64,000 nt of DNA from an uncultured Oscillospiraceae bacterium (GTDB lineage: Bacteria; Bacillota; Clostridia; Oscillospirales; Oscillospiraceae). This document shows positions 12,489 to 26,414 of this stretch, piece by piece. The first letter of the stretch is position 1; each line of letters begins with the position of its first letter. The DNA lies in assembly GCA_947599875.1 (NCBI GenBank), contig CANQFV010000004.1, forward strand, positions 1 through 64,000, written 5' to 3'. The notes under the pieces were generated by a model. That model ran no database searches, had not been told where the DNA came from, and was given only the letters and a program-made list of their open reading frames with translations. The translations under genes and the position numbers were made by a program.

Positions 12489-12683
12489 TCATTCCGGCCA
12501 AAAGATCTCGTCCAGGGTCTTATTCAGGGCGCGGCAGATGACGATGCACAGGTTCACGGTGGGGTTGTAGTCGCCGCTCTCGATGGCGTTGATGGTCTGG
12601 CGGGAGACGCCCACCTCATCCGCCAGGGCCTGCTGGCTCAGGTCCAGGGCCGCACGGGCGGCCTTCAGGCGGAGATTCTTCAT
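12489..12683 (-). CDS. Small XRE-family transcriptional regulator
   Basis: Protein of 64 residues consisting almost only of a Cro/CI-type helix-turn-helix: LDLSQQALADEVGVSRQTINAIESGDYNPTV read in two parts shows the recognition helix SRQTINAIE and the conserved SGDYNP turn, ending DEIF. It closely resembles the YgzD/HipB-like small regulators that accompany membrane proteins in Firmicutes. Its ATG overlaps the stop of the membrane-protein gene by four bases, so the two are coupled; the regulator probably controls its own operon. A second such pair, in the opposite gene order, is at 46409-47090. Confidence 0.9.
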   Translation of the reverse strand: MKNLRLKAARAALDLSQQALADEVGVSRQTINAIESGDYNPTVNLCIVICRALNKTLDEIFWPE

Positions 12684-13207
12684 TCCCGGTTCCTCCGATC
12701 CAGGAGAACCTTAATGAAGAGGCTCAAGAAGATGCTGGCGGCCATCATGCCGAAGCTCAAATACATCCAGCAGCGCCCAAGGCGCCCCTCCGACAGCGTG
12801 CCCTCGTCCCGCATCAGCGTCAGGCCATAAAAGATCTCCCACGCCGCCACAAGGCCCATGCTCAACAAAATCACAGCCCGGCTGCCCTTGATGGCCACAA
12901 AGGCGTCCTTCACAATGCTGTACACGCTCATGACCGTGACGCCCAGGCACACCGTCATCAGCGGCGCCACCCCGGGGACCGCCAGCTCCCGGTCAAAGGT
13001 GGACTCGGCCAGGTAAAAGCAGACCCCGGCCAGCACCATCGCGTAAAAGCCCAGCTCAAAGCCCTTTCCCCTGGCCCTGAGCTGCCGCTCGTCGTACTGT
13101 CCGTTGCCCACCTTGCTCCTGCGGTCCAGGGAACCGAGATAGACAAGGAGCGAAAACCCGCCCACAGTCAAAAGAATGATAACGACAAAAATACCCGTCG
13201 GCCTCAT
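12680..13207 (-). CDS. Four-helix membrane protein paired with XRE regulator
   Basis: Protein of 175 residues with four or five hydrophobic segments (about residues 5-25, 45-70, 75-95, 105-125, 145-170). I do not recognise a named family. The paired organisation with a 64-residue XRE regulator is common in gut Clostridia, where such membrane proteins are annotated only as DUFs. ATG 13207 has GGGGAGGA seven bases upstream; upstream in-frame readings lack a ribosome site. It is the promoter-proximal gene of the pair. Confidence 0.78.
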   Translation of the reverse strand: MRPTGIFVVIILLTVGGFSLLVYLGSLDRRSKVGNGQYDERQLRARGKGFELGFYAMVLAGVCFYLAESTFDRELAVPGVAPLMTVCLGVTVMSVYSIVKDAFVAIKGSRAVILLSMGLVAAWEIFYGLTLMRDEGTLSEGRLGRCWMYLSFGMMAASIFLSLFIKVLLDRRNRE

Positions 13208-13233
13208 GGGATCCTCCCCTTTCCTTTTTCTAT

Positions 13234-13262
13234 ACTGTAGCACTTATCTGATAATTTGTCAA
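13234..13262 (-). promoter_or_regulatory. Promoter of the membrane protein / XRE operon
   Basis: Minus-strand TTGACA (13262-13257), 17 bases, then TACAGT (13239-13234), about 30 bases before the start codon. A near-consensus sigma-A promoter. Confidence 0.75.
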
Positions 13263-13314
13263 GTATATTTTACTATTTTGCCAAAGAGAGAATTTGCTCA
13301 AACCCGCCCAGGCA

Positions 13315-13350
13315 GCAAAAAGGCCGCCTACAGTTTCAGTAAGCGGCCTT
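13315..13350 (-). terminator. Terminator downstream of the giant surface-protein gene
   Basis: On the minus strand the stem AAGGCCGC / GCGGCCTT is followed by TTTTTGC. It lies about 270 bases past the stop of the SLH/vWA gene and just upstream of the next operon's promoter, so it insulates the two. Confidence 0.65.
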
Positions 13351-13370
13351 GCCGGAAGAATAGTTTTTCG

Positions 13371-13564
13371 CACCTGCCGGGACAGTTCAAACACGAAAGC
13401 GGATACATTGTCCCGGTAGGTGTGTACAGATAATCGCGAATAGGCGCAAGGGACGTAGGCCCTTTATAGGAGCGCAACGGCAAAAGTGGGGCGTAATTTC
13501 GCGAATAATGTTTTCCGCCTTTCAGGGGCAGAGCCGTCCTGGCGACGGGTGTCAGGACGGCTCT
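13371..13564. repeat. Two long inverted repeats in the giant gene's 3' region
   Basis: Arms CACCTGCCGGGACA (13371-13384) and TGTCCCGGTAGGTG (13409-13422) pair with one mismatch around a 24-base loop. A second perfect 12-bp pair, AGAGCCGTCCTG / CAGGACGGCTCT, lies at 13530-13564. No ORF is supported between 13208 and 13617. They may be structured 3' UTR or relics of an inserted element. Confidence 0.6.
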
Positions 13565-13617
13565 ACTCTCAGGTAAGAATTGCCGGATATGCTTCACTTA
13601 GCTGCATAAGGGGCGGT

Positions 13618-16600
13618 TTACCATGTACCGCTGCCACCGCCGCTACTACCACCACTGTTGCCGCTTCTGCCACTGTCATGAAAGACGCTGTAATATGGCA
13701 ACTTGCTTGAAAGCGTAAGTCCTAATGCGGACGCACGGGTATAGATGCCACGAGATAAAGTCTTAAACGTATCTTCTATTTCATCATTTCCCATACCCAG
13801 GAACCAACTCGATATCAATTTCCCCAAGTCATTTTTGAGCAAACGTTTCTTTTCATAGTCTTCACCAACCAGTCTGCACTGAGCTAATTGTGTCATATAT
13901 TCAGCTACTGTACCGTCATATGAGAAGAATACATCACCGTGTTCGATATTAGAATCGATATACTCAATGCAGCCATCGGAGAGGGCCTTCATTGTCCTAC
14001 AGCTTACTATGAGTTTGGCTTGGTTGCTCAAACCGGCAACGTTGATTGTTAGCTTGGCAATATCATAGACGGATTTAGCCACTTTTGTATAGGGGCAGAT
14101 ATTCGAGGCAATATCCATGACAATGGAAAGTGAAGTGAGCGCAATTGTTTTAGTATTTGCCGCAACCAATTGCTTCTCATAAGTGTCCCAGGATTCGTCT
14201 TCTATCGCTTTTGCAATGTCATGTGCTGCAACCCGGTCATATTCTTCGGGTGCGTGTTCTGCGATATAATACAGCAAGTCGATATAAGCAACATATGCAT
14301 CGCGGTTTGCCTTCAATTTTCCGTATGTATTGCAAGTTTCTGTAATCTCTATTACTCCGTCCACAACGTCCATTGCGGCGTCAACATAGGTGCTGGTCAT
14401 ATCCCCCTTATCACCTTTTGATTTCAAAAAATCTTTATATCCCCTTGAAATTGCCTTAAAGCCTGTATCGAGTCTCATATACCTAAAACCGTCATAACAG
14501 GTTTTGATTGTGCTGACAGCAACGGCAATCTCGGAAAACGCCTTATCCCAGGCAGTAGTCAGGTCTTCTGTAAATGAGGCAAAATCATCTTTATGTTCCC
14601 GAAATAGATCTTGGAACTCTTCTATTGTGGAGATCGTCGTATTCGCATCGGACAAAACATCTTTCAAAACGCCCTCCAAAACGCCCTCATCCTCATCTGA
14701 AAAGAACTGGTTTGTATTCATCGCGTCCAGGATTTTCTTCCTACTTGCTCTCAGTTGTCGAGAAGCACCCTCTATCTTTATATTTCCTGCCCTGGCTTCA
14801 TCGATGAAGGTTTTTGCATCCCCCGAATCGCTAATATCGTTTACCATGTCCGCCACATCGCCAGTAATAGTATAGATACTCTTTGTTGTCTTGGCGATGT
14901 TGGCAATACTCTGCATATACTTTAGATACTGGTTACGAATTTCCAGCGCGGCGATTTTTTCACTGTTTTTCTCAATGGTATCCGCTGATGCGTAGTCGTA
15001 AAAGAATGCAATCAACTGCTCTTTAGCCTCATCAGTTTTTTCTACGTCGAATAATGCGTTGAAGCGTGACACAAAACTTTTATCATCTGCGACAGAAGTA
15101 TACATATAGCGCTTGTCGTCTTCCAAGGCCTTGAGGTACGAGTACGCATCAGAGGTTCGTTTCATAGGAGGCGTTCCCTGCCTCTTTTCCTCCGCATCAG
15201 AGTAACCATCCCCATCGGAATCCGCAAGAAGTGGATGTGACTCCATTTTAACGTATACTTTATTGCCGGATACGCAGATGTGTATCTCCTCACCATTCTT
15301 CAAGCCATCACCATCCCAGTCGTCGCACTCTTCGCCATACATATCCGTCACATCAATCAAATCAAAGCAAGCGGAAGACAGAGGTAAAATGCCATCGTTC
15401 AACAGCTTAGTATAATAGTCTGAGATTCCGTCGTTGTTCGTGTCAGTCGTATAATCTATTGTTTCAAAAGACACATCTGCGTAGATATCAGGAAGATCAT
15501 CAGCGGAAGCAGCAAAGAAATACTTTCCACCGGTTCCATCGGCAATTGCTCTCAGCGTACTCTCCCGAACGCCTCTCCCCAGACCAATTGTGTATATTAC
15601 AATATTATTATCATGTGCCGTTGTTGTATAATTTGTGTTATAGGAACCGTCCCCGTCCGTCAGAAAAACGATGTACTTATAGGCATCTGTTCTGGTATAA
15701 CTGTCATCTGTAAACAGACTGATTGCTAAACTTATCCCCTTGCTGAGGTTAGTATTACCGCTACTGTTCACACGGTCGATTGCGCTATTTAAGAGGTCAT
15801 GTTCGCTTGTAAACTGCTGGTAAACACTTGCAGAAGAGTCAAAATCAATAACTGCCGCCCGATCGTTTTTTCCAAGCTTTGCAACGAAGTCTTTTGCCGC
15901 CTCTTTGCGCAGATTCGCCTTGTCATTACTTGTCATACTTCCCGAAGAATCAATGACTAACACAATGTCTATACCAGTATACTGAGGATTCTCCTGATTC
16001 TGGGGATTTCTAATTTCAGCTTCCCAGACGCTGTCAAAATCAACTTTATTTAACAAAATATAAGTTGAGAAATGAGACACTGTCGCACAAACTGTACCAT
16101 CTGTCACAGTTTGGTTGGGAAGCTCCTCCAATAGCCCGGTCTCCTCATTAAGATAATATATTCTCGGTTGGAATGTCTCTCCAATTTCCCAGAGTTCTGA
16201 GTCATATTCAAACATTATTACTGCGGATTCAAGTACGCCATCCGTGGAGAAATCATAGGCCGGGCCGCCAAGATATCCCGCTACGTTTTGGGACAAGAGC
16301 AGATTATCCATCGGTGCAAGTTCTTTAATCTGAAGCGTACCAGCACCGGTGGCGTTGGTTTCGGCTTTCGCCGAGACGGTAACTGGCGTGTTCTCATCTA
16401 CGGAGCCGACAGAAACAGCGGTTTCAAATTTGGTCTCAATTTGAAGCGGATCAGATCCAATCTCAGTCTCTACACCATCGTTCACGCCATCTGAATCTGT
16501 ATCTGCATTCAAGGGATCTGTATGATATGTATTTAATTCATCATAATCAGAAAGATAATCACCGTCGGAATCGGAGTGAATCGGGTTAGTACCATAATAT

Positions 16601-17922
16601 GCCTCTTCCCGATTGGTAAGTCCGTCGCTGTCCGGATCCTCATCAGCATCAGAGATACCGTTTTGATCCGTATCAGCGGCAGTTGGATCATAATTCAGCC
16701 AGTCAAGTTCCAGGTAATCGGGGACACCGTCGTCATCCGTATCCGCTTTTGTTGGATCGCTCCCAAATTCCTTTTCAAGCGCATCGGTCAAGCCATCTTC
16801 ATCAGAATCTTTATCATCGTTCTCATTTAACCATTTGGCATAGAGAGTAAGATTATGTTCAACCGGAGTATCAAAATCATATGGCCTGGAATATCCATTA
16901 CTGCAATACCACCCTATAAATATGCAGCTTTCTTTTTCGGGGTCATTTGGCTGCGTCGCGTTCGTATGGCCTTGAACAGTCTGAGGGGCAACCGCACTAC
17001 CTCCGTTGCTGTCAAAGGTGACTGTATAATTTTTGGCAGATACCGGGGGCATGTAGCCACCACCAGAGCTAATGAGACTCCAGTGCGCATATAAAACCAG
17101 ATTACCGTTGATTGTAGTGTTAAAGTCAAACTTGTTCCCGCCGGACTCTGCCGTATACCACCCATCAAACGCATATCCGCTTCTGGTCGGGTTGGCCGGG
17201 CTGCTCACAGTTTTACCGTGTTCGACCTTTGCGGTGTTATATGTACCCTCGCTGCCATAGTTATACATAAAGGTCACTGTATGAAAAGCGATATTTTCAC
17301 AGAACCGCATCAGAACCGTCGCGGCCTGCGCACGATTCGCGCCGCCTGCAGGAGAAAGGGTGTTATTGCCCACACCCTGCAGCAAGCCGGCGCCAACCGC
17401 CCAGTTTACAGCATCGACCGCAAAGGAGCTGACCTGTTCCTCATCTGAAAAACCGGCTACACTGTCTGTGATGTCCGTATCATATTCCTTATACGCGGCA
17501 TAGCGGTACAGGATTACCGCCATCTGCTCGCGGGTAATAGGATCATCTGGTCCAAATCTGCCATTACCATAGCCGTTAACAATATTATTTGCGCTGGCCC
17601 AAGTCACGGCATCCGTGTACCATTTATCTGCAGGAACATCAGAAAATGCCGTTCCTGTGGCAGAGGGAAGCCCCTCCAAGCGGTACAGGATAGTTACGAT
17701 CATTCCGCGGGAAGCGGAGGTGTTAGGCGAAAAGGCTGTACTGCTCGTACCAACCATCATGTCATGCTCATAGACGTATTGGACGGCGTCGCTGTACCAG
17801 GCGTCGTTCGGCACATCGGTAAAAGGATGGTCCCCGCCGGCCGCAAAAGCCACGCTGGGAAGTAACCCCAACAGCAGGCATAGCGATAACAGCACACTAA
17901 GAAAACGCGTTGATTTGTTCAT
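13618..17922 (-). CDS. Giant SLH / InlB-repeat / calcium-repeat / vWA surface protein
   Basis: Secreted cell-surface protein of 1434 residues. Domains in order: signal peptide 1-28 (cleavage after AFA); three SLH domains at about 30-210 (FTDVPNDAWY, FSDVPADKWY, FSDEEQ) that bind cell-wall polymer; two Listeria-Bacteroides (InlB B) repeats at about 213-372; calcium-binding DxDxDG repeats at about 375-500; a vWA domain at about 650-835 with MIDAS DSSGSMTS; more DWDGDG and DSDGDG loops at about 870-920; then roughly 500 mostly helical residues and a Gly/Ser tail. The vWA suggests metal-dependent adhesion. ATG 17922 has AAGGAG eight bases upstream. One sampled line is about 40% GC against over 60% in neighbours, suggesting transfer. 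An apparent invertible promoter lies directly upstream. Confidence 0.93.
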   Translation of the reverse strand: MNKSTRFLSVLLSLCLLLGLLPSVAFAAGGDHPFTDVPNDAWYSDAVQYVYEHDMMVGTSSTAFSPNTSASRGMIVTILYRLEGLPSATGTAFSDVPADKWYTDAVTWASANNIVNGYGNGRFGPDDPITREQMAVILYRYAAYKEYDTDITDSVAGFSDEEQVSSFAVDAVNWAVGAGLLQGVGNNTLSPAGGANRAQAATVLMRFCENIAFHTVTFMYNYGSEGTYNTAKVEHGKTVSSPANPTRSGYAFDGWYTAESGGNKFDFNTTINGNLVLYAHWSLISSGGGYMPPVSAKNYTVTFDSNGGSAVAPQTVQGHTNATQPNDPEKESCIFIGWYCSNGYSRPYDFDTPVEHNLTLYAKWLNENDDKDSDEDGLTDALEKEFGSDPTKADTDDDGVPDYLELDWLNYDPTAADTDQNGISDADEDPDSDGLTNREEAYYGTNPIHSDSDGDYLSDYDELNTYHTDPLNADTDSDGVNDGVETEIGSDPLQIETKFETAVSVGSVDENTPVTVSAKAETNATGAGTLQIKELAPMDNLLLSQNVAGYLGGPAYDFSTDGVLESAVIMFEYDSELWEIGETFQPRIYYLNEETGLLEELPNQTVTDGTVCATVSHFSTYILLNKVDFDSVWEAEIRNPQNQENPQYTGIDIVLVIDSSGSMTSNDKANLRKEAAKDFVAKLGKNDRAAVIDFDSSASVYQQFTSEHDLLNSAIDRVNSSGNTNLSKGISLAISLFTDDSYTRTDAYKYIVFLTDGDGSYNTNYTTTAHDNNIVIYTIGLGRGVRESTLRAIADGTGGKYFFAASADDLPDIYADVSFETIDYTTDTNNDGISDYYTKLLNDGILPLSSACFDLIDVTDMYGEECDDWDGDGLKNGEEIHICVSGNKVYVKMESHPLLADSDGDGYSDAEEKRQGTPPMKRTSDAYSYLKALEDDKRYMYTSVADDKSFVSRFNALFDVEKTDEAKEQLIAFFYDYASADTIEKNSEKIAALEIRNQYLKYMQSIANIAKTTKSIYTITGDVADMVNDISDSGDAKTFIDEARAGNIKIEGASRQLRASRKKILDAMNTNQFFSDEDEGVLEGVLKDVLSDANTTISTIEEFQDLFREHKDDFASFTEDLTTAWDKAFSEIAVAVSTIKTCYDGFRYMRLDTGFKAISRGYKDFLKSKGDKGDMTSTYVDAAMDVVDGVIEITETCNTYGKLKANRDAYVAYIDLLYYIAEHAPEEYDRVAAHDIAKAIEDESWDTYEKQLVAANTKTIALTSLSIVMDIASNICPYTKVAKSVYDIAKLTINVAGLSNQAKLIVSCRTMKALSDGCIEYIDSNIEHGDVFFSYDGTVAEYMTQLAQCRLVGEDYEKKRLLKNDLGKLISSWFLGMGNDEIEDTFKTLSRGIYTRASALGLTLSSKLPYYSVFHDSGRSGNSGGSSGGGSGTW

Positions 17923-17979
17923 GCTCTTTTCTCCTTTTTTTCTCATTTTTCACAGGGCGATCTTGCGGAAAATGGTACA

Positions 17980-18143
17980 TTGCAAATAAGTGTACTTTTT
18001 TGCAAGGGCAAAATCTGACTGTAAGTTTTTCTCTAAAGGCGGGAAATATTTTGCAAAAGGCATTGAAATCCATGTTTTGTTATGATATACTCGTAGCCAG
18101 AATTGGGGCCGAGCATCCTGCAAAAAAGTACACTTTTTTGCGA
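17980..18143. promoter_or_regulatory. Putative invertible promoter segment (two hix-like sites)
   Basis: Site L, 17980-18005: arm TTGCAAATAAGT, core GT, arm ACTTTTTTGCAA. Site R, 18118-18143, best arms at 18120-18141: GCAAAAAAGT, core AC, ACTTTTTTGC. Over the central 22 bp, site L matches the reverse complement of site R at 21 positions, but site R read directly at only 19, because the cores GT and AC are complementary; the sites are therefore in inverted orientation. A 26-bp site of 12+2+12 is the layout of crossover sites of Hin-type serine recombinases. The 112 bp between them hold a strong promoter. A serine recombinase gene ends 13 bases beyond site R, and the giant surface gene starts 57 bases beyond site L. 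Confidence 0.75.
18063..18091 (+). promoter_or_regulatory. Near-consensus promoter inside the invertible segment
   Basis: TTGAAA (18063-18068), 17 bases, TATACT (18086-18091), with an extended TG at 18083-18084. It fires toward higher coordinates, away from the minus-strand giant gene and antisense to the recombinase. Exchange at the two sites would turn it to read minus-strand from about 18025, giving a leader of about 100 bases to the start codon at 17922. No comparable minus-strand promoter is seen in 17923-18119. Confidence 0.75.
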
Positions 18144-18156
18144 CTTCTCCCCCCCT

Positions 18157-18824
<668 letters not shown>

Positions 18825-18848
18825 GTTGTCCCCCGTATGCGGGTTTTT

Positions 18849-19472
18849 TCAGCGGATGAAATTTGTATTGATCTTCTGCTGTCTCTCCGGCGGGTTGATC
18901 CCGGCGTCCTTCCCGGCCTGGATGCACTTTAAAAGCCAGGCCATATTCTCCCCCAAGAGGCGCATGGTCTGGAGGCCCTCCAGATCCTGGGCCACCTCCG
19001 CGGGGGTGTTGCCGTGGACCATAGGCCAATATTGGCTTGTGGGGATGGGCATACCGGTGATGTAGAAATACTTGTTCAGCTGATCCAGCGCCGCCGTGGT
19101 GCCGCCCCTGCGGGCGGAGACGATGCCGGCGGCCGGCTTTGAGCGCAGCTTCCCGCCCACGGAGTAGAACACCCGGTCCATAAAGCCGGTCATAGTGCCG
19201 CTCATGGCCGCGTAGTGGACGGGGGAACCGAAGATGAAGCCGTCATAGCTGTCGCAGATGTCCGTAAACTCCGTGACCTTATCCCCGGCGAACACGCACC
19301 GCCCGGCCTTGCGGCAGCCGCCGCAGCCGCGGCATCCGGCCACGGGAACGGCGCCCAGCCAGAAGACATCCGTTTCGATCCCCGCCCCGTTCAGCGCCTT
19401 GGCGCACTCGGACAGTGCGGTGTAAGTACAGCCCTTCTCATGGGGGCTTCCGTTTACCAAAAGAACTTTCAT
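18849..19472 (-). CDS. Flavodoxin-family / FMN-dependent reductase protein
   Basis: Protein of 207 residues with a flavodoxin-like fold (NADPH-dependent FMN reductase group). The FMN phosphate loop is VNGSPHEKGCTYTAL near the N-terminus; a cysteine cluster CRGCGGCRKAGRC at about residues 48-60 resembles that of iron-sulfur flavoproteins; GSPVHYAAMSG is the second flavin-contact loop. It probably transfers electrons in the cytosol. ATG 19472 lies 17 bases after the stop of the Fe-S aldo-keto reductase gene, so both are one redox operon ending at the terminator at 18781-18824. Confidence 0.85.
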   Translation of the reverse strand: MKVLLVNGSPHEKGCTYTALSECAKALNGAGIETDVFWLGAVPVAGCRGCGGCRKAGRCVFAGDKVTEFTDICDSYDGFIFGSPVHYAAMSGTMTGFMDRVFYSVGGKLRSKPAAGIVSARRGGTTAALDQLNKYFYITGMPIPTSQYWPMVHGNTPAEVAQDLEGLQTMRLLGENMAWLLKCIQAGKDAGINPPERQQKINTNFIR

Positions 19473-19489
19473 ATCCGTCCTCCCTGAAC

Positions 19490-20611
19490 TTATTCCTCAA
19501 AGGCCGCAGCCACATCCCGCAGCAGCCCCACGATCTCCAGGTGCTGGGGACATGCGCCCTCGCACTGGCGGCAGTGGATGCAGTCGGAGGCCTTGGAGTG
19601 GGTCTGAGTGAATTCCCGGTACTGCTCCTTGGACTTGTCGCCCCAGCGGTGAAGGAGCTTGGCCTTCATGTAGGTGTTGTAAAAGCCGAAGATGTCCGGG
19701 ATCTGGATGCCCATCGGGCACCCCTCGGTGCAGTACCGACAGGCGGTGCAGGGCACAGCGGTGTAGTTGTTGATGATGTCCGCGCACCGGAACAGCATGG
19801 CCCGCTCCTCCCCTGTCAGGGGGCGGAAATCCCGCATAAAGCCTGTGTTGTCCTCCAGCTGCGCCACGTCGCTCATGCCGGACAGCACAACATGAACCTC
19901 CGGCAGGCCGGCGGCAAACCGGATGGCCCAGGAGGCCACGCTGGCCTGGGGATCGGCGTCACGCAGGAGCTTCTCCGCCTCCTCCGGGAGCTTGGCCAAG
20001 GCCCCGCCCTTCACCGGCTCCATGATGATCACCTTTTTCCCGTGGCGTACAGCCGTCTCATAGCAGAGCCGGGACTGGACGCGCTCCGACTCCCAATCCA
20101 GATAGTTGATCTGGAGCTGGACAAATTCCTCCTCCGGATGCTCGGTGAGGATCCGATCCAGCACCTCCGCCTTGTCGTGGAAGGAGAAACCCATGTGCCG
20201 GATCTTCCCCTCCTCCAAAAGGCGCCTCTGGAAGCCGAAGGCGTCAAAGGACTTGGCCCTCTCGTAGTTATCCGTATTCAGGTTGTGGAGAAGATAATAG
20301 TCGAAATACTCCACCCCGCACTTTTTCCTCTGCTCCTCAAAGATCCGCTCCATATCCCCCTGCTCCCGGAGGAACATGGTGGGCAGCTTTGTGGTCAGCG
20401 TGAAGCTGTCCCGGGGGTGGCGCTCCACCAGCGCCTCCCGGATGGCCGTCTCGCTGCGGTACTCGTGGTACATGTACGCCGTGTCAAAATAGGTAAAGCC
20501 CCTCTCCAAAAACGTGTCCACCATCCGGCACAGCTGCGGCATGTCGATGCTGCCGCCGTCGTTTTTGTCCGTCACAGGCAAACGCATAAGCCCAAATCCC
20601 AGTTTTTTCAT
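19490..20611 (-). CDS. Aldo/keto reductase with C-terminal 4Fe-4S clusters
   Basis: Protein of 373 residues. The N-terminal 270 residues form an aldo-keto reductase barrel with the expected Asp-Tyr-Lys-His set (FDTAYMYHEY, TTKLP, LLHNL). The C-terminus adds two ferredoxin-like cysteine motifs, CTACRYCTEGCP and CIHCRQCEGACP, as in the Fe-S oxidoreductase subgroup of anaerobes. It likely reduces a carbonyl using NAD(P)H or ferredoxin; the substrate is unknown. The start ATG 20611 is supported by a purine-rich site and by the conserved KKLGFGLMRLP N-terminus. It leads the operon with the flavodoxin-like gene. Confidence 0.9.
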   Translation of the reverse strand: MKKLGFGLMRLPVTDKNDGGSIDMPQLCRMVDTFLERGFTYFDTAYMYHEYRSETAIREALVERHPRDSFTLTTKLPTMFLREQGDMERIFEEQRKKCGVEYFDYYLLHNLNTDNYERAKSFDAFGFQRRLLEEGKIRHMGFSFHDKAEVLDRILTEHPEEEFVQLQINYLDWESERVQSRLCYETAVRHGKKVIIMEPVKGGALAKLPEEAEKLLRDADPQASVASWAIRFAAGLPEVHVVLSGMSDVAQLEDNTGFMRDFRPLTGEERAMLFRCADIINNYTAVPCTACRYCTEGCPMGIQIPDIFGFYNTYMKAKLLHRWGDKSKEQYREFTQTHSKASDCIHCRQCEGACPQHLEIVGLLRDVAAAFEE

Positions 20612-20725
20612 ATTTCGCTCCCCTTCCAGGCTTATTTCTAAAATAGATTATACAATCTTTTCCCTCGAAACGCAACCCCGAACGGAAAAAACGTCCTTTT
20701 TTTATGCATTTTTGAAAAATAATGC

Positions 20726-20754
20726 TTACATCCGGCAAAAATCTATGATATAAT
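20726..20754 (+). promoter_or_regulatory. Promoter of the CarD-family gene
   Basis: TTACAT (20726-20731), 17 bases, TATAAT (20749-20754), about 55 bases before the start codon. A second TTGACA at 20763-20768 lacks a good -10. Confidence 0.65.
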
Positions 20755-20808
20755 GACCTTAATGTTGACATAACTGGTTTTATTTTGAAATTTGGGAGAG
20801 AATGCGGT

Positions 20809-21336
20809 ATGTACACGGCGGGGGATTATATTGTTTACGCGGGGGAGGGCGTCTGTGTTGTGGAGGACGTGGGCGCGCCAAAGGTCTCCGGTGCTAATAA
20901 GGACAGGCTCTATTATACCCTGTCCCCACTGTACCGGACGGGCCGGGTCTTCGCGCCGGTGGATACTCATGTGTTCATGCGCCCGGTCATCAGCCGGGAG
21001 GAGGCCATCGACCTGATCCGCTCCATCCCCTCCGTCACAGCGGAGCTGTATGAGAACTCCAACCTGCGCTTTTTGACCGAACACTACCAGCAGGCCATCC
21101 AATCCTATAGCTGCGCCGGGCTTGTGAAGCTCATCAAGGACGTGTACCTGAAGCGCCAGCACGCCACCTCTCAGGGCAAGAAGCTGGGCCAGATCGACGA
21201 GCGGTACATGAAGCGTGCGGAGGATATGCTCTATGGGGAGCTGGCCGTTGCGCTGGATATCGACCGCAGCGAGGTGGGGCCATACATCAAGAACGCAATG
21301 GCACAGATCGAGTCCGGCCAGGACTTCACCGGCTGA
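20809..21336 (+). CDS. CarD-family transcriptional regulator
   Basis: Protein of 175 residues. The N-terminal CarD/CdnL/TRCF RNA-polymerase-interaction domain (about 1-65, MYTAGDYIVYAGEGVCVVEDVG) is followed by a helical C-terminal domain with LVKLIKDVYLKRQ and the basic ERYMKRAEDMLYGELAVAL stretch. CarD proteins bind the RNA polymerase beta subunit and stabilise open complexes, often at rRNA or stress promoters. I start at ATG 20809, where GGGAGAG is well placed, rather than the upstream TTG at 20785. It is monocistronic, with its own promoter and terminator. Confidence 0.9.
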   Translation: MYTAGDYIVYAGEGVCVVEDVGAPKVSGANKDRLYYTLSPLYRTGRVFAPVDTHVFMRPVISREEAIDLIRSIPSVTAELYENSNLRFLTEHYQQAIQSYSCAGLVKLIKDVYLKRQHATSQGKKLGQIDERYMKRAEDMLYGELAVALDIDRSEVGPYIKNAMAQIESGQDFTG

Positions 21337-22564: not shown

Positions 22565-23326
22565 TCAGCTTGTGATCAAATACCACCAGATGCCGGCGCA
22601 CTCCCGCAGGTAGTAATTAAACTCCAGCACCGGGTAGCCCGTACTGGCGGGGCGGGCGGTGACGGAGGCGTAGCCCAGATCCAGGGCCATGAGCTTGGCT
22701 CTGGCGATGTGGTATCCACCGGTGATGATACATACGTTCTCCTCCCCGGCCCCCAGCTCCCGGAGCTTCTCCAGGGAGAAGGTGAGGTTCTCGGCTGTGC
22801 TGGTGGAGCGATCCTCCAGCACCAGGCGTTCCGGAGCCACGCCGTGTTGTGTCAGCCAGTTGGCCATACACTGGGCCTCGGAGATGTCCTCCCCCGGCCC
22901 CTGGCCCCCGGAGAGGATCAGGATGGCCTGAGGTCTCTCGGCGGCAAACTTCTCCGCCGCCCGGAGCCTGGCCCACAGCGCCCTGGAGGGCACCGTCCCG
23001 TTGACCCCGGCGCCCAAAACTACGGCGTAGTCCTCCCGGGTCTCCCCCTTCTTCGCCGTCAGCACCTGGGAGACGATGTACCCCTCGGTGGCGATAACGG
23101 CCGCCAGGCCCAGGACGACGCAGGCGGTGAGGGCGTTTCTGACTCTCCCCGCCCCCTTGGGGTGCTTTTCCGCCAGGAGCTTCAGGCCCATATACATAAG
23201 GATCAGAACCGCCAGCCCGGCAAAGCACAGGCCCAGGAACTTATACCCCACCATCACAAAGCGGAACACGGCGGCAATCACAAGCAGTATGGCCGCCGCG
23301 GCCACATATCCCCTCACCTTTTTCAC
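22565..23326 (-). CDS. YdcF-family (DUF218) membrane protein
   Basis: Protein of 253 residues. Three or four N-terminal membrane segments (to about residue 110) precede the DUF218 domain with AVVLGAGVNG, LILSGGQGPGEDISEA and LEDRSTSTAENL, which form the conserved core of the ElyC/SanA/YdcF family. Relatives affect cell-envelope integrity and vancomycin tolerance, but no reaction is established. I start at GTG 23326, which follows GGGAGGAGG and overlaps the ABC-F stop by four bases (GTGA), so the two genes are translationally coupled. Confidence 0.85.
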   Translation of the reverse strand: MKKVRGYVAAAAILLVIAAVFRFVMVGYKFLGLCFAGLAVLILMYMGLKLLAEKHPKGAGRVRNALTACVVLGLAAVIATEGYIVSQVLTAKKGETREDYAVVLGAGVNGTVPSRALWARLRAAEKFAAERPQAILILSGGQGPGEDISEAQCMANWLTQHGVAPERLVLEDRSTSTAENLTFSLEKLRELGAGEENVCIITGGYHIARAKLMALDLGYASVTARPASTGYPVLEFNYYLRECAGIWWYLITS

Positions 23327-25197
23327 TGAGATACCTCCTCCCACTGGGTGTAAAGCGCCTCCAGGCGCTCCGTCAGCTCCTGATGCTCCCGGGTAAGCTC
23401 CATGAGGCGCTCATAATCCGTGGCGGCGGCCTCCTGGTTTTGCTCATTCTCCCCGATCTTCTCCTCGGTCTGGGCGATCTCCCGCTCGATCCGGGCGGCC
23501 TGCCGCTCCCGGGAGACGGCCCGTGCGGCCCGCTCCGGCTTCTTCCCGCCGGGGGCCTTGGCCGCGGCTGTCTGGGCCAGCTGTCTCTGCCGCTCCAGGT
23601 AATCCCGGTACTCCCCGTAGCCCATGCGGTAGTCCTTCAGCTCTCCCCCGCCCATGACCCAGATCCGGGTGGCGAAGCGGTTGATGAAGTACCTGTCGTG
23701 GGAGACGAACAGCAGCGTCTCCGTGTAGTCGGCCAGCGCCTCCTCGATCCACTCCCGGCTGGCCGCGTCCAGGTGGTTTGTCGGCTCGTCCAAAATGAGG
23801 AAATTGATGTCCGATTTCATCAGCATACACAGCTTCAGTCGGCTCCTCTCCCCGCCGGACAGGGCGTTGACCGGGGTGAACACCTGCTCCCCCCGGAAGA
23901 GGTAGGCCGCCAGCCTGTCCCTGGCCTCCTGCTGGGTACACTTCCCCTCGTACATCATGCACTCCAGAACGGACGGGGAGTCGTCCTGAAACGTCACCGT
24001 CTGGGGCAGATACGCCGTCTTCACCGCGGGGCCGATGCGGGTAAAGCCGGTGTCCGCCGGCTCCTCCCCCAAAATCATCCGGATCAGGGTGGATTTTCCC
24101 GTGCCGTTGTCCCCGATGAGGGCCACGCGCTCCCCCGGCTCGATGAGAAGCTCCGTCTCCCCCAGGATCCGCTTCTCCCCAAAGGCCTTCGTCAGGCCCC
24201 GGGCGACAAGCACCTCGTCCCCGCGAAACTCCGTCTCCCCGAAGCGGGTCTTCATCTTGGCCTCCTGCCGGGGCCGGTCGGTGACGCGCATCTTATCCAT
24301 ACGCTTCTCAATGGAGAAGGCCCGCTTGTGGAGCTTATCCGCCCCCATAAAGGCCCACAGGTGCAGGTCGTCCGCCGCCTTTTGCAGCTGGGCGATCTTG
24401 GCCTCCTGCTTCTCATAGCGCTTCAGGCGCTCCTCGTACCTTCTGCGCTTCTCCTCCAGATAAAAGCTGTAATTTCCGCTGTAAAACTCCGGGAGGCCGT
24501 CCACGATCTCGATGACGCGGCTCACCGTTCTGTCCAGGAAATACCGGTCGTGGGAGATGGCCAGCACCGTCCCCTTGAATTTGTTGATGTAGTCCTCCAG
24601 CCACTCGGCGGCGGACATATCCAGGTGGTTTGTGGGCTCGTCCAGCAGCAGGATGTCCGTGTCCTCCAGGATGAGCCGGGCCAGGTTGAGCCGTGTCCGC
24701 TCCCCGCCGGAGAGCTGGGCGTACATCTGCTCCCGCTGTCTGCGGGGGATCCCCAGGCCGTTGGCCACCGTGTCCCGGAAGCGCTCCAGCTCCCAGCCGC
24801 CCAGGCGCTGGAACTCCGCCGACAGTCTGTCATAGGCCCTCAGGGTGTCCGCGTCGCTGTCCCCGGCGGCCATTTTTTCCTCCAGCTCCTCCATCTGGCG
24901 GCCCATCCGCTGGATGCGGCGCTGGGCCTGGCGAAGCACGTCCTCCCCGGTGTAATCCTCCGGGTACACGGGGATCTGGCTGAGGACCCCCACCCGTTTC
25001 CCCGGGGGCGTCACCACCACGCCCTCGTCCGACTCCAGCTCGCCGGAGATGATCCGGAAGAGGGTGGTCTTCCCCGCCCCGTTCCGTCCCAGGACGCCCA
25101 CATGCTCCCCGGCGGTGATGTCGAAGGAGACGCCCTTCAGGATGTCGTTGCCCTTTTCAAAGGCGATGCGAATTTTTTGAACAGATAAATCGATCAT
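23323..25197 (-). CDS. ABC-F family ATPase
   Basis: Protein of 624 residues with two ABC domains and no membrane part. First domain: Walker A LGRNGAGKTT, signature LSGGERTRLNLARL, Walker B ILLLDEPTNHLD. An ABC-F type arm/linker rich in charged residues lies between (RRRYEERLKRYEKQEAKIA). Second domain: IGDNGTGKST, LSGGERSRLKL, FLILDEPTNHLD. A coiled-coil C-terminal tail of about 90 residues (IEREIAQTEEKIGENEQNQE) resembles Uup/YdiF-type members. ABC-F proteins act on the ribosome, either as translation factors or as antibiotic-resistance proteins; which applies here is not clear. It is first in a two-gene operon with ydcF. Confidence 0.93.
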   Translation of the reverse strand: MIDLSVQKIRIAFEKGNDILKGVSFDITAGEHVGVLGRNGAGKTTLFRIISGELESDEGVVVTPPGKRVGVLSQIPVYPEDYTGEDVLRQAQRRIQRMGRQMEELEEKMAAGDSDADTLRAYDRLSAEFQRLGGWELERFRDTVANGLGIPRRQREQMYAQLSGGERTRLNLARLILEDTDILLLDEPTNHLDMSAAEWLEDYINKFKGTVLAISHDRYFLDRTVSRVIEIVDGLPEFYSGNYSFYLEEKRRRYEERLKRYEKQEAKIAQLQKAADDLHLWAFMGADKLHKRAFSIEKRMDKMRVTDRPRQEAKMKTRFGETEFRGDEVLVARGLTKAFGEKRILGETELLIEPGERVALIGDNGTGKSTLIRMILGEEPADTGFTRIGPAVKTAYLPQTVTFQDDSPSVLECMMYEGKCTQQEARDRLAAYLFRGEQVFTPVNALSGGERSRLKLCMLMKSDINFLILDEPTNHLDAASREWIEEALADYTETLLFVSHDRYFINRFATRIWVMGGGELKDYRMGYGEYRDYLERQRQLAQTAAAKAPGGKKPERAARAVSRERQAARIEREIAQTEEKIGENEQNQEAAATDYERLMELTREHQELTERLEALYTQWEEVSQ

Positions 25198-25211
25198 ACC
25201 GTTTTCCTACA

Positions 25212-25243
25212 TAAAAAAGGCCGTCCAGCGGGCGGCCTTTTTT
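25212..25243 (-). terminator. Terminator downstream of the CD1247-like gene
   Basis: A-run, stem AAAGGCCG / CGGCCTTT with a short loop, then seven T residues; it works on the minus strand, 18 bases after the CD1247-like stop, and possibly in both directions. Confidence 0.8.
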
Positions 25244-25260
25244 TCTCTGATGATGCGGGA

Positions 25261-25743
25261 TCACTCCTCGGGTTCCAGATCCTCGTCGTCGTACTCCTCG
25301 TAATCGTCGTCGTCATCGTCGTCGGCGTCCTCCTGGGTGAGATCCAGCTCCAGGCTCTCGCCGCACTCGGGGCACTGGACAACGCCCTGCTCCAGGTCGG
25401 ACTCCTCCAGCACAAACTCGGCTCCGCAGGCGGGGCACTCCACCTCGTACTCGAACTCCTCGTCCTCGTCGCCGTGATGGTGGTGATGGTGGTGACAGCA
25501 GCACTCCTCATCGTCGTCATCGTCGTCATAGACGATGTCCTCCACCATCTCCAGATCCTCGGAGACGGCGTCCAGCCCGTCGTTTAGCTCGTCGATGGCG
25601 TCGATCAGGTCGTCCTGACCCAGTGCCAGATCCTCCAGCACATCGGCAATGGCCGCCAGGATCTTGCCCTCGCCCTTCTCGGTGTCCATGCCCATGCCTT
25701 CCATCAGGCCCTTGATATAAGCGACTTTCTCAGCGGGTGTCAT
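25261..25743 (-). CDS. CD1247-type acidic zinc-ribbon protein
   Basis: Protein of 160 residues. The N-terminal 60 residues (EKVAYIKGLMEGMGMDTEKG) match the CD1247 N-terminal domain, a Clostridia-specific helical module of unknown function. Then come an Asp/Glu run, the unusual string CCCHHHHHHHG at about residues 80-90, and a zinc ribbon with CPACG and CPECG. The C-terminus is almost all Asp, Glu and Tyr. The His/Cys string suggests metal binding. It is very acidic and probably cytosolic. ATG 25743 has GGGAGG upstream. Its position next to efp may reflect a conserved neighbourhood in this group, but that is inference. Confidence 0.8.
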   Translation of the reverse strand: MTPAEKVAYIKGLMEGMGMDTEKGEGKILAAIADVLEDLALGQDDLIDAIDELNDGLDAVSEDLEMVEDIVYDDDDDDEECCCHHHHHHHGDEDEEFEYEVECPACGAEFVLEESDLEQGVVQCPECGESLELDLTQEDADDDDDDDYEEYDDEDLEPEE

Positions 25744-25844
25744 AGCAAAAACCTCCCATAAATTATTGCCGGTGAAAAATGCTCTCTTCCATAGCTTCCC
25801 CTGTTTTTCGGCAGTGTAACCGAAAAGACGGGGAAAACGCGGTC

Positions 25845-26414
25845 TCAGCCCTTGGCGCGCTCAAGATACTCGCCGGTGCGGGTGTCGATCCGGATCTTGT
25901 CGCCCACGTTGATGAAGAGGGGCACCTTGATCTCGGCGCCGGTCTCCAGGGTGGCGGGCTTTAAGGTGTTGGTGGCGGTATTTCCGGCGAAGCCGGGGTC
26001 GGTGTCGGTGATCTCCAGCTCCACAAAGTTGGGGGGCTCCACGGAGAAGACGTCGCCCTTGTAGGAGCTGATGACGCAGACCATGTTCTCCTTCACAAAG
26101 CGGAAGTTGTCCCCAAGCTTGGACTTGTTCACCGGCTCCTGCTCATAGGTCTCAGGATCCATGAAGTAGTAGAGATCCCCGTCCTGATACAGGTACTCCG
26201 CCTCCTTGCGCTCCACAAACGCCTCCTCAAACTTGGCGGTGGGGTTGAAGGAAGTCTCGGTGACGGCGCCGGTGATGAGGTTCTTCATCTTGGTGCGCAC
26301 GAAGGCCGCGCCCTTGCCGGGCTTGACGTGCTGGAACTCCACGACCATGACGGGTTTCCCCTCGTACTCAAAGGTCTTGCCGTTCCGAAAATCGCTGGCG
26401 GTAATTGTTGCCAT
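25845..26414 (-). CDS. efp: Translation elongation factor P
   Basis: Protein of 189 residues, standard for EF-P. Three beta domains are recognisable: an N-terminal KOW-like domain with the loop [10 protein letters not shown], whose lysine is the position modified in other bacteria, an OB domain, and the C-terminal OB domain ending [10 protein letters not shown] with the signature around [18 protein letters not shown] rescues ribosomes stalled on polyproline. The loop carries the lysine rather than arginine type; no modification enzyme is encoded nearby. ATG 26414 has GGGAGG about ten bases upstream. It is followed downstream by the M24 peptidase on the same strand only at higher coordinates, so it ends that transcript. 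Confidence 0.97.

Follow-up and report, generated by a model that had tools for sequence, protein, structure and literature searches.

A putative self-contained phase-variation cassette of gut Clostridia: a short invertible promoter, an adjoining serine recombinase gene and changing cargo

The sites hix and gix of the Hin and Gin invertases are 26-base-pair (bp) dyads with a 2-bp core, and the invertible segments of Hin, Gin and Cin measure about 1 kilobase (kb) or more. The Hin gene lies inside its invertible segment (PMC5903667). In Bacteroides fragilis, the serine recombinase Mpi turns at least 13 scattered regions, seven polysaccharide loci included (PMC5903667). In Clostridioides difficile, the cell-wall protein CwpV is phase-variable and exceeds all other members of its family in size (PMC2784873), and its switch is inverted by the tyrosine recombinase RecV (PMC5903667). 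The invertons described for hCom2 are short, contain promoters and lie close to genes of surface proteins and invertases; Firmicutes_A dominates two groups whose motifs are new, and the most significant link between inverton and invertase, in a Clostridia group, concerns a tyrosine recombinase, the word "serine" being absent from the main text of that study (PMC11892184). The locus considered here lies in the first 64,000 nucleotides of contig CANQFV010000004.1 (forward strand; hereafter the window) of an uncultured Oscillospiraceae bacterium, where a short candidate invertible segment carrying a promoter separates the gene of a surface protein, P0002, from that of a small serine recombinase, P0001.

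This locus is very probably a self-contained phase-variation cassette, in which an invertible promoter would be flipped by the adjoining serine recombinase. With Hin, Gin and Cin it shares inverted 26-bp dyads, an asymmetric 2-bp core and a serine recombinase encoded beside the segment, but the segment in such cassettes spans only about 115-150 bp and the recombinase gene lies outside it. Compared with Mpi, most of these switches have a recombinase gene of their own attached, they are found in Clostridia, and their cargo includes phage defence. It resembles the CwpV switch in that it would make a large surface protein phase-variable, with a tyrosine recombinase there and an adjoining serine recombinase here; RecV is not known to be encoded beside the CwpV switch. 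Overlap with the hCom2 inverton groups is possible. The features of the locus are as follows.

17980..18005, plus strand: recombination site L with 12-bp arms, TTGCAAATAAGT.GT.ACTTTTTTGCAA, core GT at 17992-17993
18006..18117, no strand: 112-bp candidate invertible segment between L and R, with counterparts reversed between collinear relatives
18063..18091, plus strand: consensus promoter TTGAAA (18063-18068), 17 bp, TATACT (18086-18091), with extended TG, pointing away from the surface gene, the -10 end 26 bp before R
18118..18143, minus strand: recombination site R, CTGCAAAAAAGT.AC.ACTTTTTTGCGA, core AC at 18130-18131, which is GT on the minus strand
18157..18762, minus strand: small serine recombinase P0001, likely start codon AUC at 18762-18760, stop codon at 18157-18159
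13618..17922, minus strand: cargo P0002, a 1434-amino-acid surface protein with a signal-peptide-like start, three SLH stretches, List_Bact repeats, TSP3 repeats and a vWA domain

The paired sites, the promoter and the adjacent recombinase gene are confirmed. Both sites have the form known from Hin and Gin, i.e., two inverted 26-bp dyads with an asymmetric 2-bp core; each is a near-perfect dyad on its own, and L is identical to the reverse complement of R at 21 of the 22 central positions. An earlier sequence-only reading of this DNA had described these sites, with the same match (here recomputed), as well as the recombinase gene ending 13 bases past R, the promoter facing away from the surface gene, and the start of that gene at 17922, where an ATG preceded by AAGGAG is the most likely start (the mechanical open reading frame extends to 17946). 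Only its length of 137 bp between the cores is off by one base, since the distance is 138 bp from core to core and 136 bp strictly between them. A consensus scan of 17900-18900 yielded two promoter-like sites, both on the plus strand, against 0.6 +/- 0.8 in shuffles; TTGAAA-17-TATACT is the better one, and no minus-strand promoter toward the surface gene was listed in this interval. A promoter called by consensus thus lies between inverted repeats, as in invertons. Because it points away from the surface gene, the assembled locus is in the OFF state, as had been claimed, and in this state the promoter would fire antisense toward the recombinase gene.

Sites of this kind are scarce by chance. 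Applied to 20 Markov windows of 64 kb, a search for paired dyads gave no pair, against five in the window, where L/R is joined by four pairs from a repeat cluster at 1.9-2.2 kb. The four other pairs were rejected as switch sites, being GC-rich intergenic repeats that look unrelated; the cluster that surfaced in this chance control occupies 1740-2320 and consists of GC-rich inverted repeats around GGGGACGGTTCTTT, intergenic by eye. Throughout the 2.73-megabase genome, the site pattern with up to three mismatches matches L, R and one more site on contig 30, and its backwards control matches nothing. On that contig a second site pair (17914-17939 and 18040-18065) precedes an SPFH gene, and no P0001 relative was found there in a search of the genome of the window. 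In two relatives (L052 and L100), an SPFH gene stands directly behind a recombinase-linked switch. The simplest reading is that one recombinase would serve both loci of the window's genome.

The association of site pair and recombinase gene recurs among relatives. In 54 of the named relatives, which are the best 80 of at least 572 recombinase loci confirmed by a contig scan, the stop codon of the recombinase gene is followed by a site pair, found by motif in 46 and by de novo search in eight; among the remaining 26, the contig ends too soon in five, one is without a stop codon, 19 are without a pair and L099 is masked by N. When the core was left free in the motif search, GT followed by AC was recovered in 47 of 47 pairs (46 named loci and the window). 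The de novo search of the other 34 loci produced eight pairs, all with opposed cores (GT/AC in seven, CT/AG in one), and none on shuffles of the same 34 stretches; L099 was dropped as a ninth because its row is a run of N. In three de novo pairs (L063, L108 and L126), altered bases beside the core are mirrored in the partner site. Site 1 starts 8-13 bp past the recombinase stop codon in 51 of 55 pairs (54 named and the window). A survey of 34 genomes of the genus used a sequence model of the site and opposite-strand pairs 90-170 bp apart, with matches accepted to E = 3, so that single pairs can be wrong. Eighteen of the genomes encode a recombinase of at least 57% identity, and pairs occur in 16 of them; the other 16 genomes, among which those with more distant relatives only (e.g., G010, 40%) are counted, have none. 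The survey comprises 30 opposite-strand and two same-strand pairs, the latter two being palindromic sites scored on both strands. The link seen in the genus is an association and not an independent proof.

As relatives show reversed segments with collinear flanks, inversion in this recombinase family is well supported. The nearest named relative of P0001 (L049) and the nearest of the same genus (L143, genome G005), each 92% identical among the matches listed, have a 112-bp segment that is 93.75% identical in reverse, between flanks that are collinear upstream (89% over 389 bp) and downstream (98% over 64 bp, 138 bp compared). Likewise, the segment of L101 is reversed relative to L106 (86% over 101 bp) and L110 (85% over 96 bp), with downstream flanks at 92-93%, and between L101 and L106 the inner arms are swapped and the outer arms unchanged, which places the breakpoints at the core. 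Reversed segments are also found between L101 and L117, with an upstream flank only for comparison, between L168 and L169 (84% over 77 bp) and between L167 and L168 (82% over 61 bp). In the congener G002, a genome listed with 4% contamination, two copies carry an identical 89-bp segment in opposite orientation, with upstream flanks at 97% and downstream flanks without a match. The inversion predicted earlier is thereby borne out, on comparing orientation among relatives, by reversed segments between the same flanks in several collinear pairs, and by extension the window's own copy may invert as well. In L059, the only one among the spacers compared that is clearly similar to that of the window, and in L137 (G020) and L135 (G032, contig 6), the promoter has the same direction as in the window.

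It could be argued that inversion does not take place and that the dyads are operators of a dimeric regulator, perhaps the recombinase acting as a mere repressor: near-perfect dyad symmetry is a property of either site, and promoters are often flanked by paired operators. Such operators would have no need of opposed asymmetric cores, yet GT precedes AC in all 47 motif pairs, and this explanation is already contradicted in those relatives where the segment is reversed between the same flanks, once with a visible exchange of the inner arms; we regard it as hardly credible.

P0001 scores 101.5 bits against the resolvase catalytic domain PF00239 (cut-off 23.3), and R14, S16, Q20, D73, R74, and R77, which we take to be the catalytic residues of small serine recombinases, are invariant across 36 aligned recombinases. 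Ranked by bit score against 15 PDB sequences, Sin comes first (99.9 bits), followed by the longer gamma-delta and Tn3 resolvase entries (64-69 bits; gamma-delta 69.0) and, only slightly under these, by two entries titled DNA-invertase, presumably Gin (62.3 and 62.0 bits), below which the shorter gamma-delta constructs are found. Against the Mpi equivalog NF009949, P0001 reaches 47.3 bits for a cut-off of 272. The label of a Hin/Gin-type recombinase given in the sequence-only reading therefore holds for the form of the sites and the mechanism, and was not adopted for family membership, as P0001 matches Sin much better than the DNA-invertase entries. With Sin as its nearest match, P0001 might be the remnant of a mobile-element resolvase, a second serine or tyrosine recombinase acting on the sites in its place. 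The same genome, searched for relatives of P0001 only, does encode two further ones, aligned over most of the P0001 length at 43 and 35% identity. On the other side, the site pair comes directly after the recombinase gene in relative after relative, and recombinases at 61-63% (L167-L169) and 75% identity (L174) to P0001 go with differently spelled arms, which fits site and enzyme evolving together; flipping by another enzyme is very unlikely. Loci L167, L168, and L169 have GTCCCAAAAGGT-type arms with the core order AC then GT, and precede giant proteins whose N terminus resembles that of type IV pilins; N_methyl was found in L168, and the resemblance was recognized by eye in L167 and L169.

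Two further features lie upstream of the recombinase gene.

18771..18776, minus strand: Shine-Dalgarno-like GGGAGG of the recombinase gene, read from the sequence
18783..18824, minus strand: strong hairpin directly upstream of the Shine-Dalgarno stretch, 14-bp perfect arms, -27.5 kcal/mol, z -5.15

The 3' arm of this hairpin enters six T, four of them within the stem, and it looks terminator-like by eye; it is absent from the list of the terminator scan because its loop exceeds the length that the scan allows. Among 80 readable recombinase genes, window included (L115 was dropped, its motif missing), 28 have no ATG, GTG or TTG within ten codons before the YIRVS motif. AUC, AUU or AUA is present in the last eight codons before the motif in 27 of these, AUC occupying the fifth codon in 17, and a Shine-Dalgarno-like stretch 8-11 nucleotides from such a codon is found in 22 of the 28; an in-frame stop leaves 11 of the 28 without any canonical start, and 13 have one further upstream. 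The start region of the window's gene (18760-18776, minus strand) has its homologues in L049-L128. The hairpin and the AUC start suggest that the recombinase would be made rarely. They also give some weight to the view that the switch is real in relatives but dead in the window, where drift or an untranslated recombinase would have fixed it in the OFF state: P0001 is without a canonical start, a strong hairpin stands directly upstream, and no inverted copy of the window's own segment was seen among the relatives' sequences compared. But 28 of the 80 genes share the missing canonical start, nearly all with AUC, AUU or AUA, the protein is 78-92% identical in 32 named relatives (among the matches listed) with its catalytic residues invariant, and both window sites keep their 21 of 22 central matches, which makes a locked copy unlikely.

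In the mechanism proposed for the cassette, P0001 would bind both 26-bp dyad sites, which would be paired across a very short loop, cut at their 2-bp cores and rejoined; the opposite orientation of the GT cores would make the outcome an inversion of the 138-bp segment. In the ON state the promoter would then read into the surface gene, and in the OFF state it would face the other way and run against the 3' end of the recombinase gene. The upstream hairpin together with the AUC start codon would keep the recombinase scarce. The sequences directly display the sites, a promoter-like sequence, the gene order, the conservation of these features and reversed segments in collinear relatives; from them we infer that P0001 is the flipping enzyme, that the window copy still flips and that the surface gene is switched on or off by it.

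The geometry of the switches is consistent with such a mechanism. Of 72 oriented switches, 52 have the end of the -10 hexamer 26-27 bp before the site that follows. When 74 switches are grouped by spacer similarity into 43 clusters, their site spacings are 113-116, 126-128, 134-139, and 147-148 bp, with a resultant of 0.84 at a period of 11.0 against a maximum of 0.43 in 2000 draws from a uniform null. The eight de novo pairs, outside the clustering set, have spacings within the same ranges (115, 116, 116, 136, 136, 137, 138, and 139 bp). In our reading, sites on such short DNA would meet only when they are on the proper face of the helix. Recombinase-linked switches point away from their cargo in 44 cases and toward it in 13, with one unclear, and unlinked switches in seven, six and one, respectively (L165 and L148b are left out of this count); an excess of the OFF state in linked over unlinked switches is not established (Fisher p 0.16).

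Several points weigh against the cassette as an active invertible switch. The 19 of 80 named recombinase loci without a detectable adjoining pair, several with the first site only, and the two of 18 genus genomes with a recombinase but without a pair do not follow the rule; many site matches in the genus, accepted to E = 3, are weak, and the relatedness of the genomes makes the co-occurrence test overstate their independence. Promoters were called throughout by consensus only, and the uniform null used for the spacings is crude. The missing ATG, GTG or TTG start of P0001 could also indicate a decayed gene. As to the inversions, the inner arms of L049 and L143 and of L168 and L169 are too similar to reveal an exchange, and the outer arm of site 2 in L117 is unlike that of L101. 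Lastly, the window locus is known from one assembly only, and the orientation seen there is OFF.

What stands behind the switch varies widely. Thirty cargo proteins from 29 non-redundant loci were compared with Pfam and 15 with PADLOC, and defence-type genes come first or second behind the switch in at least 14 of the 46 named motif-pair loci. Eco57I-like methylases were found by scanning in L083 (with a type IIG-like third gene) and L105 and, through DNA similarity to L083, in L080, L087, L088, and L103. MmeI-type IIG enzymes occur in L094 (scanned) and L097 (by similarity), a PLD-SNF2 helicase followed by a IIG enzyme in L101 (scanned), L106 and L110 (by similarity), and a C5 methylase with a restriction enzyme in L111 (scanned) and L116 (by similarity). 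In L089, the promoter is directed toward a BREX operon, brxA-brxB-brxC. Other switches precede LRR/BspA surface proteins (L075 and L127), enzymes such as MBOAT (L056 and L102), acyltransferase-3 (L067 and L078), sugar transferase (L086), and polysaccharide deacetylase (L113), or an SPFH protein (L052) and a STAS-phosphotransferase (L053); several cargo proteins belong to no class (Sel1, WG, zinc-ribbon, bacterial PH, and FtsK-like), and no Pfam match was obtained for the cargo of L090, L098, L114, and L120. In L082 and L084, a gene about 1 kb downstream of the switch, which points away from it, presumably resembles a 23S rRNA adenine methylase.

The cargo differs between otherwise shared surroundings. 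Between L083 and L101, a 3-kb stretch ending 14 bp past site 1 is 92% identical and a 447-bp stretch beyond the cargo 91% identical, with no DNA match for the cargo between these flanks; in L094 and L111, an identity of 92% covers 2.7 kb and stops where site 2 ends, with no match after it (4.8 kb of L111 compared). The window is itself collinear with L053 at 18172-21317, 22580-26042, and 12491-13278 (76-79%), around the following stretch.

13279..18171, no strand: differing cargo and switch without a DNA match in syntenic L053, a STAS-phosphotransferase gene behind the recombinase in L053 and the SLH/vWA gene in the window

The natural reading is that the gene behind the switch has been replaced at one and the same locus. 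Recombinase DNA is at least 84% identical in 25 locus pairs; the upstream flank is common to 12 of them, seven of which do not share the downstream gene, neither flank is shared in another 12, and in one only the downstream gene is. Cargo capture by site-specific recombination is unsupported, because a single extra site was found in the 46 named loci (L086, upstream of the pair), and none at the far cargo ends of these loci; homologous recombination in the shared flanks is as likely a cause of the change. As judged from these comparisons, the cassette is portable, its cargo differing behind a conserved recombinase, also at the window locus. We tentatively suggest that recombinase and micro-switch together may serve gut Clostridia as a dock for changing cargo, where the promoter stays and the gene set is replaced, so that acquired defence or surface genes would come under bet-hedging at once, and that in some genomes the same recombinase family may also drive unlinked switches as a regulon.

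Congener G002 has eleven switches with 114-115 bp spacing and GTTTG-type arms (L148-L157). Ten of them precede ten different giant surface-type proteins (670-1509 amino acids read, six cut by the contig end), which share a type of signal peptide and include only one pair above 50% identity over residues 41-440; the eleventh, L148b, is outside this set. By score, five of the ten point toward the gene, four away and one is unclear. No P0001 relative was found on the ten contigs that carry these switches, and several are present elsewhere in the genome. The set is alike in logic to the Mpi network and belongs to a Gram-positive lineage. A further unlinked switch (L166, G023 contig 45) has a regulator gene, by eye GntR-like, on one side and a divergent surface-type gene on the other; whichever way its promoter faces, it might drive a gene.

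With regard to novelty, no description of the serine-recombinase cassette or of its defence cargo was found in the literature searched, supplements being outside that search, and copies may already be listed as invertons. An invertible promoter is an ordinary device; its compact, portable form with changing cargo was not met with in that literature. The cassette as read here is wider than the switch proposed earlier, in view of the differing cargo and the eleven-member set in G002. Recombinases often adjoin anti-phage genes, their role in phage defence being unknown (PMC12529663), and for one recombinase family the cassette offers a concrete answer: the promoter of the defence operon would be flipped. 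It also provides loci that nature has paired as ON and OFF, and a candidate rule of helical phase for synapsis over 115-150 bp. Phase variation of BREX and restriction-modification becomes testable for gut Clostridia in cultured strains, carriers of the cassette being Agathobaculum desmolans ATCC 43058 (L088, restriction-modification), Merdimonas faecis BR31 (L110) and Pseudoflavonifractor sp. An44 (L081), and in genomes of this kind the presence of a gene does not imply its expression.
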